In this document: piece by piece, positions 14,271 to 20,209 of the stretch
Layout of the letters: the number at the start of each line of letters is the position of its first letter
Numbering within the stretch: the first letter of the stretch is position 1
Origin: Planctomycetota bacterium
GTDB lineage: Bacteria; Planctomycetota; Phycisphaerae; Phycisphaerales; Phycisphaeraceae
Assembly: GCA_026386955.1 (NCBI GenBank)
Contig: JAPLMQ010000302.1
Span: 62,001-126,000, forward strand
DNA: 64,000 nt
Reading direction: 5' to 3'
Position numbers and translations under genes: made by a program
The notes under the pieces: generated by a model
Seen by the model: only the letters and a program-made list of their open reading frames with translations
The model's database searches: none
Told to the model about the DNA's origin: nothing

Positions 14271-14344
14271 CGGCTTGCCCTTATCGACTCAACTTATCCT
14301 TCGGCGATCCGCGGCTTGTGGGCGGATAGTTCGGATGCCCGAGC

Positions 14345-14915
14345 TTACGGAACGGCGTTCGACGCATTGGCTGCATTTGCTTGGGGCGCAACGCCGCGCC
14401 GCGCGAGCGCCGCTCGCAAGGCGGTCATCGGCAGGCCGACGACGGTGGTCGGGTCGCCCTCGACCGTCATCGGCCAACCCGCGCGCTGGCGATCGAAGAG
14501 GTTGTACCCGCCCGCTTTCCCGCGCCATTGCCCGGAATCGAGGTATTCCTCGAGATCCCCGGCAGCGACGCGACGCATGTTCACGACCGCCGCGTCGGCG
14601 AACCGTTCGGGCTGAACGTCGTCCGCGCCCAGCAGCGCCACGCCCGTCACCACATCGTGCGACCGCTCCAGGAACGGCGACGATCACCGCACCGGGGTGC
14701 CGTTGAAAGATGCCCGCGTCGCGCAGGCTCGCGGCCTTGAGCGCCGCGAGCTCCGCCGCGGTGCGCCGGGCGTCGGGCACGCCCTCGGCGGGGTGCTCCG
14801 GCTCGGGCGGGTCGGCGAAGGGCGGGTCGGCCTGGATGAATGCGTAGCCCGCGTCGCGCAGCAGCCGGGCCCGCTGCGGCGAACGGCTGGCGAGAATGAG
14901 CAGGATCGGCGTCAC
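14345..14915 (-). pseudogene. maf: maf-like nucleotide pyrophosphatase, internally deleted and frameshifted
   Basis: The N-terminal half reads (GTG at 14915) TPILLILASRSPQRARLL and ends at HPGAVIVA near 14675. The family then continues with A-D-T and G-K-P segments that carry essential Asp and Lys. Here the next recognisable part, RSHDVVTGVALLG through LDSGQWRGKAGGYNLFD and VVGLPMTALR, follows immediately in a different minus-strand frame (14345 to about 14672). Roughly 27-29 codons are missing at the junction, so the active site is lost. Intact length would have been about 215 residues. An assembly error is the alternative. ATG at 14922-14924 is another possible start, but TACAAT lies 7 nt before the GTG. 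Confidence 0.8.
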
Positions 14916-14928
14916 GCGCGGCATTGTA
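14916..14928 (-). promoter_or_regulatory. Predicted leaderless promoter box of the maf remnant
   Basis: TACAAT on the minus strand (14923-14928) lies 7 nt before the GTG at 14915. The same spacing as at intact genes suggests the promoter is preserved although the gene is broken. Confidence 0.4.
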
Positions 14929-15277
14929 GCGGGGGCGCGGGTGGTGGACGGAACACCCGTTGGGCGACAGGGTTTTCATCCAAAACCCGCTTTTCAGTAT
15001 TGATATTCAAGGCGCGCGGGGCCGAGTCCCGATAAGCATGAACGCTGAACCACCTGTTTTTTGGCGGTTCAGCGTGCGGAGGCGTGTAAAATCGGGCGGA
15101 GCCCGATGCCGCCGCGGGCGGGAGGATGGACGTCATTCCGGGAGCGGGTCGCCGATCTCGAGCAGGTTCTGATACGGCAGCAGGGCGGATCGGAAACAAA
15201 AGAGACAAGGCTGTCCTGATTCCGATCGACATTTTCAACGAGCCACCTGTCGCTTTCAGGGACGAAAGGACGAGCCC
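14929..15277. other. Intergenic region upstream of the parA-like gene
   Basis: About 350 bp between divergent genes, less GC-rich than its surroundings in places. It holds a hairpin at about 15046-15073 (CTGAACCACC / GGCGGTTCAG, one mismatch) and a pair GATCGGAA ... TTCCGATC about 33 bp apart (near 15189-15228). TGTAAAAT near 15086 could be part of a promoter. I see no gene. Confidence 0.5.
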
Positions 15278-16591
15278 GTGCGAACGATCGCGGTCATCAA
15301 CCAAAAGGGCGGTTGCGGCAAGACCACCCTGGCCATCAATCTCGCGGCGGTGCTCGCGGCCATGGGCCGGCGCACGCTGCTGGTCGACATGGACCCGCAG
15401 TCCCACTGCGCCCTGGGATTGGCGGTGCCCGAGGCCCAGCTCGACCACTCCATCGGCGACATGCTCCGCGCCGGGATGGATGGCTCGCTCGCCTTCTCCG
15501 ACGTCGTGTGGCAGATCTCGCGCAGCCTCGACCTCGCGCCCAGCACGATGGCCCTCGCCGGCATCGAGCAGGAGCTCTCCACCGCGATCGACAAGGACCG
15601 CCGGCTCGCCCAGGTCCTCGCCCCCGTCGACGACCAATACGAATTCTGCATCGTCGACTGCCCGCCCTCCATCGGGCTGCTGACCTTCAACGCCCTCCGC
15701 GCCAGCCAGGAAGTCATCATCCCCGTCGAGACCGGCTACTTCTCGCTCCAGGGCGCCGTGCGCCAGGAGGCGACGATCGAGATGCTCGCCCGCCGGGCCG
15801 GGCACAACGTGCGCTTCATGGTCCTCGCGACGATGTACGACGTGCGCACCAAGCTCGCCCGCGAGATCCTCGCCGAGCTCAAGCGCCACTTCGCCGACAA
15901 GCTCCTGCCGGTGGTGATCAACTTCAACGCGAAGCTCAAGGAGGCGGCCAGCTTCGGCCAGCCGATCACGGAATACGACTCCTCGAGCCGGGGCATGCAG
16001 GACTTCGACAAGCTCGCGGCGTGGCTGCTCGCCAACCCGCCCGCGCCGGCGGTGGTCGAGCTGGCGGAGGGCGAGACGCCCGTCGTCGCCGCGGCCGCGC
16101 CTGCGATGAGCCGGGCGGCGGAGCTGGTCGAGCGTGCCCGCGCCCTCGCGGCCCGCACCGCGGCCCTCTCCACCAAGCTCTCGGGCGACAGCGACATCGT
16201 CCGCGAGCGCTTGGCCGACCCGCCGGCCCCCGCGCCGGGCGTCCTCCAGCCGCAGGCCGGGGCCGCCCCGGCGGCGAACCTCGCGGAGAAGCTCGCCCGC
16301 GTCTACGGCGCCCGCGCCACCTCGCAGGGATTGCTCTTCGTCCAGCCGGCGCCCACGGCCTCGTGCGTCTACGTCGCGGGCGACTTCAACGGCTGGTCCG
16401 ACACCGCCACCCCGCTCAAGCGCGACGAGCGCCTGGGCGTCTGGCAGACCTGCATCCCCGTGCCCCCGGGCCGGTACCGCTACCGCTTGGTGATCGACGG
16501 GCGCTGGACGCAGGACCCGTTCAACAAGTACGTCGAGGTGAACCCGTTCGGCGAGCTGAACAACGTCGTGGAGTTCGGGGACGAGGCGTGA
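15278..16591 (+). CDS. ParA/Soj-family ATPase fused to a C-terminal CBM48-like domain
   Basis: 437 residues. Residues 1-250 are a full ParA ATPase: deviant Walker A QKGGCGKTT with the signature Lys, Walker A' VDMDPQ and Walker B FCIVDCPP. A helical linker (about 265-345, Ala/Glu-rich) leads to residues about 348-437, which match the AMPK-beta/CBM48 glycogen-binding fold (YVAGDFNGWS, GRYRYRLVIDGRW, then NNVVEF). ParA ATPases position chromosomes, plasmids or protein complexes; the added domain would bind alpha-glucan or serve as a protein-binding sandwich. No parB partner is adjacent. The GTG at 15278 has GAAAGGA 7 nt upstream. The next gene is 70 bp downstream. Confidence 0.88.
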   Translation: MRTIAVINQKGGCGKTTLAINLAAVLAAMGRRTLLVDMDPQSHCALGLAVPEAQLDHSIGDMLRAGMDGSLAFSDVVWQISRSLDLAPSTMALAGIEQELSTAIDKDRRLAQVLAPVDDQYEFCIVDCPPSIGLLTFNALRASQEVIIPVETGYFSLQGAVRQEATIEMLARRAGHNVRFMVLATMYDVRTKLAREILAELKRHFADKLLPVVINFNAKLKEAASFGQPITEYDSSSRGMQDFDKLAAWLLANPPAPAVVELAEGETPVVAAAAPAMSRAAELVERARALAARTAALSTKLSGDSDIVRERLADPPAPAPGVLQPQAGAAPAANLAEKLARVYGARATSQGLLFVQPAPTASCVYVAGDFNGWSDTATPLKRDERLGVWQTCIPVPPGRYRYRLVIDGRWTQDPFNKYVEVNPFGELNNVVEFGDEA

Positions 16592-16661: not shown

Positions 16662-18827
16662 ATGGAAGATCCCCGTACCCGCGCGGCCCTGGACAATCTC
16701 GCCGACCTGTTCCTGACGGGAACGGCCCCTGTGGGCGTCGGCGCCGCCGCCGCGGCGGCGAGCGCCAATCCGCCTTCGGGCAACCCGCCCGCGCCCGGGG
16801 CAGGCGCGGGTGCAGGCGGGGCTGAAAAGACCGACCGCAGCGACGCGCTCGACGGTCCCCGACCGATCCGCCTGGCCCCCAAGCTCCGCCCCAACCCGCC
16901 TTCGCAGGGCTCGCCGCTCACCGGCCTGCCGATGCCGCCCGCGCGGCCGTCGCGCCTCAGCCCGCCCGGCGCCCCTTACGCCGGCGCTGCGGCCAACAAG
17001 CCGAGCGGCTTTCCCAACAGCTTTGAGAAGAGCGCCGCCTCCACCAGCGGGACCGCCGGCTCGATCGGCGTGAGCCCCGACGACTTCGACGACGCCGCGG
17101 ACGATGAAAACGACGACACGCAGGGCAGCGGGCCGATGCGCGGGCCGAAGCGCGATGGCCTGGCCGTCTCGTCGGCCGTCGAGGCGGTCTTTCTCGGCAA
17201 CCTTCCCGGCTTCGGCGGGCCTTGGCTGACGCAATACGCGCGGTTCCTCGCGCAGGGCGGGCCCGGGCCGGTCGGCGTTTTGCGCGTCGACGGGGAGCAG
17301 ATCTCGCTCGAGCTCGTCGGCACGCCCAAGCCGCCGCTCCCGCAGGACCTCGGCGAGGAAGACGCCGACAGCCAACAGACCGTCGAGAGTTGGGCCGCGC
17401 TCGCCGCTGGCGAGGAGAACCTCATCGAGCTGCTCGACGGGCTCGCATCGTTCGAGACGACGCCCGTCCGCCGATGGCTGGTCAACTTCGTCCGCCCCAG
17501 CGAGCCCGCAGCCGTCGCGATGGCCCGCGAGCTCGACCGCTGGACCTTCCTCTGCGGAGCGGACCAGGCGGCGGTGGTCGGCGCCTATCGGCTGCTCAAG
17601 CAGTTGGTCGACGCCGACGGCGGGCAGACCGAACGCCAAGTCGGCTTCATGATCATGGGCAGCGACGAGGCGACCAGTCGGCGGATCGTCGACCGCGTCG
17701 GCGCCGCCGCGGCCGAGGGCTTGCTTCGCCGCCCGCTGGAATTCCGCGGCACTCAGAAGCAGATGATGCCCGTGAGCCTGCACATCATTGGATCGTTCGC
17801 CCAGACCCCCAAGCTGTGGGAGGAGATGGTCGGCTTCTTCCAGAGCCAGGGCGACATCGAGGAAGCGCCTCTGGGCGCGGCCGAGCAGGAGGACGACCTG
17901 GCTTTCCCCAGCGCGGGCAAGCCCGCCGCTGCCTCGGCCATGACCGGCGACGCCCGGCTCGGCGCGAGCCTCGACATGGAAAGCATTCCCGAGGAGATGG
18001 TCTCGGCCGACCCGCCCGCGCGGGCGATGCCGTTGGCGGCAGCGCCTTCGCCGGCCCGGCCTGTCGCTCCGCCTGCGGCGAATGTGGCCGCAGGTGTGGG
18101 CGGTTCACAAGCCGCGCCTCCGCCTGTTCGTCCCTCCGTCGCGCCATCCGTCGCGCAGCCTGCCGCGCCGTCGTCTGAAAACGAAGCCGCTGCCGCGGAC
18201 GAAGTCGCCCCGGCCCGGCCTCGCTCGTTCCTTCCGCCCCGCGCCACCCCACCCGCACCGCGGACCGCTCAACGCCCCGCGGCGCAGGTGTCGCCGGCCT
18301 TCGCGGCCGAATCCGCTGCCGCATCGAGCCAAACGGCCCGCGCCAGCGCGGAGGTCGCCGAGCCCACCGAGGCGGCCGGGGTCTCTCCGGACTTCGCCCC
18401 TGACTTGGCCCAGTACGTCGCCGGCGGCGTCGCCCTCGAGGCGCGTTGCCCGCGCCACCCGCAGACCAGCCTCGTCCTCGACGAGCAGGGCGTGCTGCAC
18501 CTGCTTCGCCGCCACGCCTCCGCCCCCCCGCTGGGCATGCACCGCGACGCCCCGACGCGCGACGCCACGCAGGAAGTGCTGCGGGCCGCGATCGTGGATT
18601 TGATCGAGGCCCGCGCGTGGGTGCGCGAGAACCTCGTGCTGCTGTCGATGACGCAGCGGCAATTCCGCTTCGACGCCGCCGCCGAGCCGGTGCTGCACCT
18701 CTTCACCGACCAGGCCAAGCCCGCGGCCGCGCTGGTGGCCCACCTGGGCGCGCTGATCAAGCTGCACCTCCTGCACGAAGTCCGCGTCGGCGCGACGGTG
18801 AGCTGGTTCAGCACCGAGTTGAACTGA
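16662..18827 (+). CDS. Large protein with a degenerate MinD/ParA-like domain
   Basis: 721 residues, not recognised as a named family. Residues 1-155 are Pro/Ala/Gly-rich and disordered. Residues about 165-375 look like a MinD/FlhG-type fold without nucleotide-binding motifs: FLGNLPGFGGPWLTQYARFL stands where Walker A would be, and FLCGADQAAVVGAYRLLKQL and VGFMIMGSDEATSRRIVDRV match the positions of the T-P-E-x-x-x-x-x-D-A-Y-x-L-I-K and V-x-N-x-x strands of MinD. A second long Pro/Ala linker (about 430-590) precedes a helical C-terminal domain (about 590-721). TAGACT lies 10 nt before the ATG. It probably works with the preceding ParA fusion; the pairing is an inference. Confidence 0.6.
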   Translation: MEDPRTRAALDNLADLFLTGTAPVGVGAAAAAASANPPSGNPPAPGAGAGAGGAEKTDRSDALDGPRPIRLAPKLRPNPPSQGSPLTGLPMPPARPSRLSPPGAPYAGAAANKPSGFPNSFEKSAASTSGTAGSIGVSPDDFDDAADDENDDTQGSGPMRGPKRDGLAVSSAVEAVFLGNLPGFGGPWLTQYARFLAQGGPGPVGVLRVDGEQISLELVGTPKPPLPQDLGEEDADSQQTVESWAALAAGEENLIELLDGLASFETTPVRRWLVNFVRPSEPAAVAMARELDRWTFLCGADQAAVVGAYRLLKQLVDADGGQTERQVGFMIMGSDEATSRRIVDRVGAAAAEGLLRRPLEFRGTQKQMMPVSLHIIGSFAQTPKLWEEMVGFFQSQGDIEEAPLGAAEQEDDLAFPSAGKPAAASAMTGDARLGASLDMESIPEEMVSADPPARAMPLAAAPSPARPVAPPAANVAAGVGGSQAAPPPVRPSVAPSVAQPAAPSSENEAAAADEVAPARPRSFLPPRATPPAPRTAQRPAAQVSPAFAAESAAASSQTARASAEVAEPTEAAGVSPDFAPDLAQYVAGGVALEARCPRHPQTSLVLDEQGVLHLLRRHASAPPLGMHRDAPTRDATQEVLRAAIVDLIEARAWVRENLVLLSMTQRQFRFDAAAEPVLHLFTDQAKPAAALVAHLGALIKLHLLHEVRVGATVSWFSTELN

Positions 18828-19319: not shown

Positions 19320-19601
19320 TCAATCGCGCAGGTCGTCCAACAGACCGTTGATCGCGCCGTCGAGCTTTTCGGGCGTCTCATAGGTGCCCTTGGCGATCTC
19401 GGCCTTCACGCGGTCGACCAGGTCCTGACGGACGTCGGGCAGCTTCGCCAGACGGCTGAGCAGTTGGGCCTTCTGCGAGAACTCCGCCTTGTCGCCGCCG
19501 CGGGAGGGCGTCTGGTCGACGGTCGGGGTGGATTGTGTCGGACGTCCGAGCCGGGTGGCCGAGGCCGCGGCAGGCCGTCCGATGGGTGCGATGTCACTCA
19601 T
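19320..19601 (-). CDS. flgM: FlgM-like anti-sigma-28 factor
   Basis: 93 residues. The C-terminal half has the FlgM pattern: VRQDLVDRVKAEIAKGTYET followed by P-E-K-L-D-G-A-I-N-G-L-L-D-D-L, where the K-x-x-I-x-x-G-T-Y core contacts sigma-28. The N-terminus is Pro/Ser/Thr-rich and unstructured, as expected for a protein exported through the flagellar apparatus. The start at 19601 is fixed by GAGGAG 7 nt upstream. A strong terminator follows. Its job would be to hold sigma-28 until the hook is built. No other flagellar gene is in the window. Confidence 0.8.
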   Translation of the reverse strand: MSDIAPIGRPAAASATRLGRPTQSTPTVDQTPSRGGDKAEFSQKAQLLSRLAKLPDVRQDLVDRVKAEIAKGTYETPEKLDGAINGLLDDLRD

Positions 19602-20209
19602 TTGAATGCTCCTCACGCGTCGCCGTTTCGGCGGCGCTTGGGCCGAGGTTTTGATCCCCAAATCCTGATGGGATTCACCTCAGCGGTTTGCGGTGGGGCC
19701 GCTTCCTTGCAGTATTAGTATCGCCCATCGCCCTCGAATGTCTTGAAGGAATGAACAACCGACAGTCAATTCCGCAACACCATTCATTCAATCGACTTAT
19801 ACAATGATTCAGAATTGAACGTCCGGTAAGAAACAACGCCCCTGCATTGGCGGCAACCGCCGCGCAGCGAACAACCCGAACGGGTTATCAGACCAATTGC
19901 CGACGAACCAGTATAGCCTCACCTGCCCGGAATCCAGCGCCCCTTGGAATGAAAATTGTTCGGGAAAATGACGGGTCGTTTGGCCGGGGGGCCGGGGAAT
20001 ATCCGGGGCTTGAGGCGGCTTGATCTTCACGCGGGCCCGGGTTCACGCCTGGGTGGCGCTCGTGGCCTCGCCGCGTTCGGGCCTGGCGCGAGATTTAGAT
20101 GACGCCCGTGCGACTATGATGGCCACACGTGCCGCATCTCCATCATCACCCCGACCAACTCACGCCCTAGGCCCCCGGCCCCGGCCCCCCCCGGAACACG
20201 GAGACTCCC
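19602..20209. other. Gene-free region between flgM and the YHS-like lipoprotein
   Basis: About 600 bp, partly AT-richer (19740-19830). It holds the leader and promoter of minus-strand flgM. On that strand AAGACATT - 11 nt - GGCGATAC (19718-19744) loosely resembles a sigma-28 promoter. AACCCGAACGGGTT (near 19868) is a 14-bp palindrome. TATGAT near 20115 is a possible -10 for the plus-strand lipoprotein. A 73-codon minus-strand frame at 19809-20030 has no start signal or recognisable content and is not called. Confidence 0.4.

Follow-up and report, generated by a model that had tools for sequence, protein, structure and literature searches.

A ParA-type ATPase with a fused CBM48/AMPK-beta-type domain in Phycisphaerae, a possible motility-linked positioning protein

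As a rule, an ATPase of the ParA/MinD family locates its cargo by way of a distinct partner protein that evolves quickly. Within this family FlhG places flagella and ParC/PpfA place chemotaxis clusters, and the partners of these ATPases attach through an N-terminal peptide (PMC10241942). We describe here a locus from a window of 64,000 nucleotides (the whole stretch of DNA that was analysed, from a genome of the Phycisphaeraceae), in which a ParA-type ATPase and a CBM48/AMPK-beta-type domain are joined in one polypeptide. ParC of Vibrio and PpfA of Rhodobacter sphaeroides resemble this fusion in being of ParA type, in keeping the nucleoid-binding positions and in their apparent link to motility; the fusion, however, is located outside a chemotaxis operon, carries a C-terminal CBM48, and has as its partner a degenerate FlhG, whereas the partner of ParC/PpfA is CheW-like or receptor-like. 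Carboxysome positioning by McdA/McdB likewise relies on a ParA ATPase and a partner with an N-terminal peptide and long disordered regions, but in the fusion the putative cargo- or ligand-binding domain sits on the ATPase itself. The storage-granule organisers PhaM, PhaF and PhaH combine nucleoid-binding and polymer-binding ends in a single protein, as the fusion would in the scheme set out below, but have no ATPase and bind PHB; a review of them mentions no glycogen counterpart (PMC13052382). Our literature searches found no description of a ParA-CBM48 protein of this kind.

Domain layout and conserved residues

The fusion gene (15278..16591, plus strand) has a GTG start and encodes 437 amino acids. 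Residues 1-252 (15278..16033) form a Soj-type ParA ATPase domain, recognised by Pfam (AAA_31, 4.4e-45, residues 2-174), by Soj/ParA chains in the PDB (E down to 2.5e-47) and by fold search (VIA Z 38.8, rmsd 1.5, 250 aligned). A linker of variable length follows, disordered in the AlphaFold2 model around a helix at residues 279-303 (16112..16186), and leads to the CBM48/AMPK-beta-type domain at residues 343-433 (16304..16576). Both AMPK1_CBM (1.5e-12, residues 361-433) and CBM_48 (2.1e-8, residues 343-414) match this domain over both curated Pfam cut-offs, and the fusion is the sole protein of the host genome over the AMPK1_CBM cut-off. Compared with PDB chains, the C-terminal 100 residues retrieved AMPK-beta1 first (E 2e-9), then DSP4/SEX4, which are plant glucan phosphatases, and then the branching enzyme GlgB. 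The AlphaFold2 model has a mean pLDDT of 88.7, with approximately 90-98 in the ParA and CBM blocks and confident strands in the CBM region. The first-pass annotation had read the gene as an intact ParA followed by a helical linker and an AMPK-beta-type CBM48, which Pfam, PDB matches and AlphaFold2 bear out; the structure prediction that it suggested thus yielded a confident CBM block, while the accompanying fold search with the whole model listed matches to the ParA half only and none to the CBM. The CBM fold therefore rests on sequence and model, by which the C-terminal domain is assigned to the CBM48 family and its fold. Upstream of the fusion, a Maf gene (14289-14924, minus strand) appears frameshifted, with its N- and C-terminal halves in different frames, reflecting either an assembly error or a pseudogene.

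The ATPase half keeps the signature lysine (Lys10), the Walker A Lys15, D37, D39 and D127. In the alignment, K10, K15, D37 and D127 were found in 102/102 sequences and D39 in 101, so that the deviant Walker A motif with signature lysine (KGGxGKT) and the conserved aspartates of ParA/MinD (A/D) ATPases are both present. Two basic residues, R190 and K219, which correspond to the DNA-binding arginines R189 and R218 of Bacillus subtilis Soj, are putative nucleoid-binding positions; at the level of sequence, R190 is kept in 90/102 proteins and position 219 is K or R in 98/102. As far as its residues tell, the ParA half thus retains the positions for nucleoid binding that a positioning ATPase should have. 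The fusion is a real and conserved protein, and a variant within the ParA/MinD family.

Carbohydrate contacts in AMPK-beta1 are made by W100, K126, W133, L146 and T148 (PMC2642990). Aligned to that protein, the window fusion has the contact equivalents W373, R403, W410 and N428, the last matching AMPK-beta1 N150, a further sugar-contact residue. Among 100 fusions, the equivalent of W100 is kept in 99, that of W133 in 98 and that of N150 in 96, all three being shared with AMPK-beta and SEX4/DSP4, the best PDB matches. In contrast to those proteins, K126 is replaced by arginine in 100/100 fusions, a conservative change, T148 has given way to an acidic residue or glycine, and the domain is joined to a ParA where those proteins have a kinase or phosphatase. 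The rest of the CBM domain drifts to approximately 54% mean column identity, and the W-R-W core is broken in only three of 79 fusions sampled from 21 families (G111, G251 and G406). The first-pass annotation had staked its reading on CBM48 membership and on the contact Trp/Lys positions being found in homologues; W/R/W/N are kept in about 96-100% of the 100 fusions, so this test of its own was passed. Judged from these residues, the CBM48 probably binds glucan. In G111 the contacts read G, A and L in place of W, W and N, and the operon partner described below has been lost as well; this genome (L186, G111:C15; L055) also encodes, besides the fusion with its degenerate site, a stand-alone CBM48 protein of 203 aa that retains W, R and W.

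Distribution, promoter and operon partner

Scanning genome contigs, we confirmed 201 related loci and kept 80, from Phycisphaerae including Sedimentisphaerales; nearly all of these span the full length (residues 1-432), so the fusion is not a chance product. The survey across planctomycetes proposed in the first-pass annotation placed it in 94 of 150 sampled Phycisphaerae, where it is conserved, and outside this class just once (G058) in approximately 270 other Planctomycetota (294 planctomycete genomes scanned); plasmid records matched the ParA half only. In a tree of 94 ParA domains, the fusion ATPases were separated from the chromosomal ParAs (98/99 support) and grouped largely by host family, as expected from vertical inheritance. 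The fusion is ancient. ParAs without a CBM, from G371, G421 and G220, nest inside the fusion clade, so the loss of the CBM is secondary and took place in flagellin-less lineages. Three architectures exist, with CBM and partner, with CBM but no partner, and with partner but no CBM, and the two elements are therefore not strictly tied to each other. A class-wide conserved operon was considered and rejected, since only the partner recurs and the other neighbours vary.

A predicted sigma28/FliA-type promoter, TCAAG-N16-CCCGATAA (15007..15035, plus strand), lies approximately 240 bases upstream of the GTG. The sigma28 consensus is TAAAGTTT-n11-GCCGATAA (PMC2859248), and we scanned the 300 bases upstream of genes for TAAAG-N14..16-GCCGATAA with a score out of 13. 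The site scores 11/13 and is the only one of its kind in the window, where shuffles predict 0; in most Phycisphaeraceae loci the element precedes the fusion with the same spacing. Scores of at least 11/13 were obtained for 70 of 98 distinct loci, where dinucleotide shuffles predict 1.2, and for 1.1% of the control windows from these loci; none of 11 chromosomal parA genes reached a score of 10. The flagellin genes point both ways: six of 20, from clades that also hold the fusion, share a sigma28-type site (1.1% in shuffles), all of them in Sedimentisphaerales-type genomes (f7); the other 14 are without a good one, which counts against the reading, and those of Phycisphaerales show no motif. 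Sites of sigma54 type, tried as a candidate, were no commoner than in shuffles, and Rfam gave no matching element (best E 0.12, below threshold). We consider it very probable that the fusion belongs to the flagellar (sigma28) regulon. Right after the -10 element there is a 10-base inverted repeat, ACGCTGAACC...GGTTCAGCGT (about 15044-15077), possibly an operator or a leader hairpin. In G077, a copy of the element, TTCAAG-N16-CCCGATAA, occurs 3' of the operon (L044:11596-11625, plus strand) before an ORF which may be part of the same regulon.

The gene that follows the fusion (16662..18827, plus strand) encodes a partner of 721 amino acids that matched no Pfam or NCBIfam family. In the structural model it begins with a helix (residues 4-19, 16671..16718), a candidate ATPase- or FlhF-binding peptide whose D-x-L-A-x-L echoes, by eye only, the FlhG helix DQAxxLR. 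The middle domain (residues 169-405, 17166..17876), a Rossmann domain, has a degenerate FlhG/FleN-like fold: it aligned with FlhG 4rz3 at VIA Z 11.7 (rmsd 4.8, 174 aligned) and with FlhGs of the class at an hhalign probability of 96.4% (E 1.2e-9), and returned nothing against the fusion's own ParA profile. By fold and profile, then, the partner is derived from FlhG, the MinD-like regulator of flagellar number, from which it differs in lacking Walker A (GNLPG..., without the lysine in 20/20) and in its long disordered linker and C-terminal domain. The latter (residues 577-721, 18390..18824) resembles XisH/PD-(D/E)XK proteins at a borderline level (2inb, VIA Z 8.1, rmsd 3.2, 112 aligned) and, with no clear ExK in the alignment, is unlikely to be an active nuclease. 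Genuine FlhGs, which have DQAxxLR and whose P-loop is intact, are found elsewhere in these genomes beside flhA, flhF and sigma-factor genes, as in the flagellar cluster L247. The partner homologue adjoins the fusion on the same strand, often overlapping or 10-200 bases away and sometimes highly diverged, throughout Phycisphaerales and in f96-f100, f102, f94 and f5; it is absent next to the fusion in Sedimentisphaerales, f7 and others.

Flagellin is encoded in 107 of the 150 Phycisphaerae genomes, 83 having both flagellin and the fusion, 11 the fusion only, 24 flagellin only and 32 neither. The fusion thus tracks flagellin with an odds ratio of 10 and p=5e-9 when kinship is ignored, a value which overstates the evidence because the genomes are related and only about five independent concordant transitions exist. 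Within families, 3/22 genomes of f96 have both and the other 19 neither, and both are missing from G220 (f3), all of f6 and two f98 genomes; f4 members without flagellin have a lost or degraded CBM. All 24 flagellin-only genomes belong to three families that never carry the fusion (f101, f106 and f109), so flagella as such can do without it. Five flagellin-negative genomes with the fusion (G353, G397, G414, G305 and G302) retain the promoter, and two of them carry flagellar regulators (in G305 an FlhF-FlhG-sigma operon; in G302 FlhG and, after it, a sigma factor), so that some of these cases are probably assembly gaps. In the window, the fusion locus stands outside any flagellar or chemotaxis operon, and no che gene was seen among the window genes scanned or recognised among the conserved neighbours of the fusion. 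Just past the operon lies a gene for an FlgM-like anti-sigma28 factor (19320-19661, minus strand; Pfam 1.5e-8, NCBIfam slightly under cut-off); as a linked gene it was rejected, not being conserved beside the fusion in relatives. The first-pass annotation had overlooked the promoter, the partner and the link to flagella.

Glycogen genes and competing explanations

The bacterial glycogen synthase GlgA is rare in the 150 Phycisphaerae (six genomes at E<=1e-30); GlgB (TIGR01515) passes its cut-off in 17 genomes, and GlgE occurs in four. A eukaryote-type glycogen synthase, GT3, is widespread, being present in 74 genomes: the host (G000:C110:9470-11242), all of its family and others. Missing GlgA and GlgB had suggested a lack of glycogen synthesis in many hosts, the present one among them, a view that the GT3 genes corrected. 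The host also encodes an alpha-glucan phosphorylase and, with GT3, is probably able to make alpha-glucan.

The first-pass annotation had raised the placement of storage granules as a role. In such a model the CBM48 would hold glycogen granules while the ParA half walked them across the nucleoid, passing the reserve on to both daughter cells or to the swimming one. Escherichia coli accumulates glycogen at its old pole, by which division is skewed (PMC12706056), and a system to partition it would therefore have a purpose; the nearly invariant contact residues and the glucan enzymes of the host also speak for it. Nevertheless, we regard it as improbable. The fusion shows no association with GT3 (44/94 genomes with the fusion, 30/56 without; p=0.50) or with any synthase (GT3, GlgA or GlgE; p=0.74 in 150 Phycisphaerae); six families (f7, f95, f97, f99, f100 and f107) are mostly or entirely without a recognised synthase, yet keep fusion and contacts, and in f96 GT3 occurs in 21/22 genomes but the fusion in only three. 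In f4 the single member with GlgA keeps the contacts and those without a synthase have lost or degraded them, a pattern which seems favourable but is confounded with flagellin loss in mostly the same genomes and hence unusable. Granule placement would, moreover, leave the sigma28-type promoter and the FlhG-like partner unexplained; the features that do go with the fusion are these two and flagellin.

A sensor for motility without any positioning, in which glucan bound by the CBM48 switches the ATPase and hence flagellar number or output, as glycogen inhibits AMPK, would account for the promoter and the FlhG-derived partner, and among solved structures the domain is closest to AMPK-beta modules, which are glycogen sensors (PMC2642990). 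It is nonetheless unlikely in our view, as the presence of the fusion does not follow glycogen synthases and the ParA half keeps residues expected of a positioning ATPase. We give quite a low probability to the CBM48 being a protein-docking module, with the partner or a motility protein, instead of sugar, bound at its conserved face. That this face is kept in lineages without a known synthase, and that contacts and partner were lost together in G111, would fit docking, but all four sugar-contact positions persist while the rest of the domain drifts, the face is unchanged in Sedimentisphaerales, where the partner is absent, and G371 and G421 retain the partner although their CBM is gone, so the CBM is not its only dock. 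Very improbable, finally, is a second chromosome-segregation or cell-cycle ParA that merely happens to be expressed in swimming cells. Soj/ParA of ParABS has the same fold and catalytic residues as the fusion, and the DNA-binding positions are conserved; the fusion, however, falls outside the chromosomal ParA clade, has an extra domain and a sigma28-type promoter, and does not follow ParB, which is present in 143/150 genomes. It has no adjoining parB, as the first-pass annotation had noted, that of the host lying elsewhere (G000:C227).

A possible role in motility

Read from sequence, the fusion itself, its near-invariant ATPase and contact residues, the operon with a degenerate FlhG, the sigma28-type promoter and the co-inheritance with flagellin are in place. 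As it accompanies flagella and a flagellar-type promoter and not glycogen synthesis, it is probable that the fusion organises a motility structure, to which it may couple a glucan signal. The ParA/MinD scheme fits, with two twists, a dead FlhG as the partner and a fused glucan-type module; we therefore propose a ParA/ParC-like positioning ATPase of the flagellar regulon, in which the built-in CBM48 would probably bind glucan as a handle or signal. We hold this reading tentatively, at slightly less than even confidence, and a role in spatial positioning as such is slightly favoured. FliA would switch on the fusion gene late in flagellar assembly, and ATP-bound dimers would coat the nucleoid via the conserved basic residues until released by the partner, or by a cargo which the partner recognises. 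The nucleoid gradient that we infer would then place a motility structure, either the flagellum or a chemotaxis array, in the manner of ParC, PpfA and McdA. The domain may serve as a handle on a large complex, the other use raised in the first-pass annotation, a motility complex being the likelier cargo. The CBM48, for its part, may bind a cytosolic alpha-glucan or maltodextrin, also inferred, and so tether the ATPase or tune it to the carbon reserve, as modelled on the AMPK-beta module acting for its kinase.

The ATPase carries, in the same chain and throughout the class, a domain recognisable as ligand-binding, so the ligand of the fusion is directly testable. Several lineages in which CBM, partner and flagellin were lost in a coordinated way provide natural mutants. 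If the CBM48 does bind glucan, it would represent a glucan module of AMPK type that is non-enzymatic and connected to bacterial motility. It is conceivable, though rather doubtful at present, that a positioning ATPase of the flagellar regulon reads or carries alpha-glucan in these bacteria, and so links, in the manner of AMPK, the carbon reserve to how the motility apparatus is built, placed or inherited.
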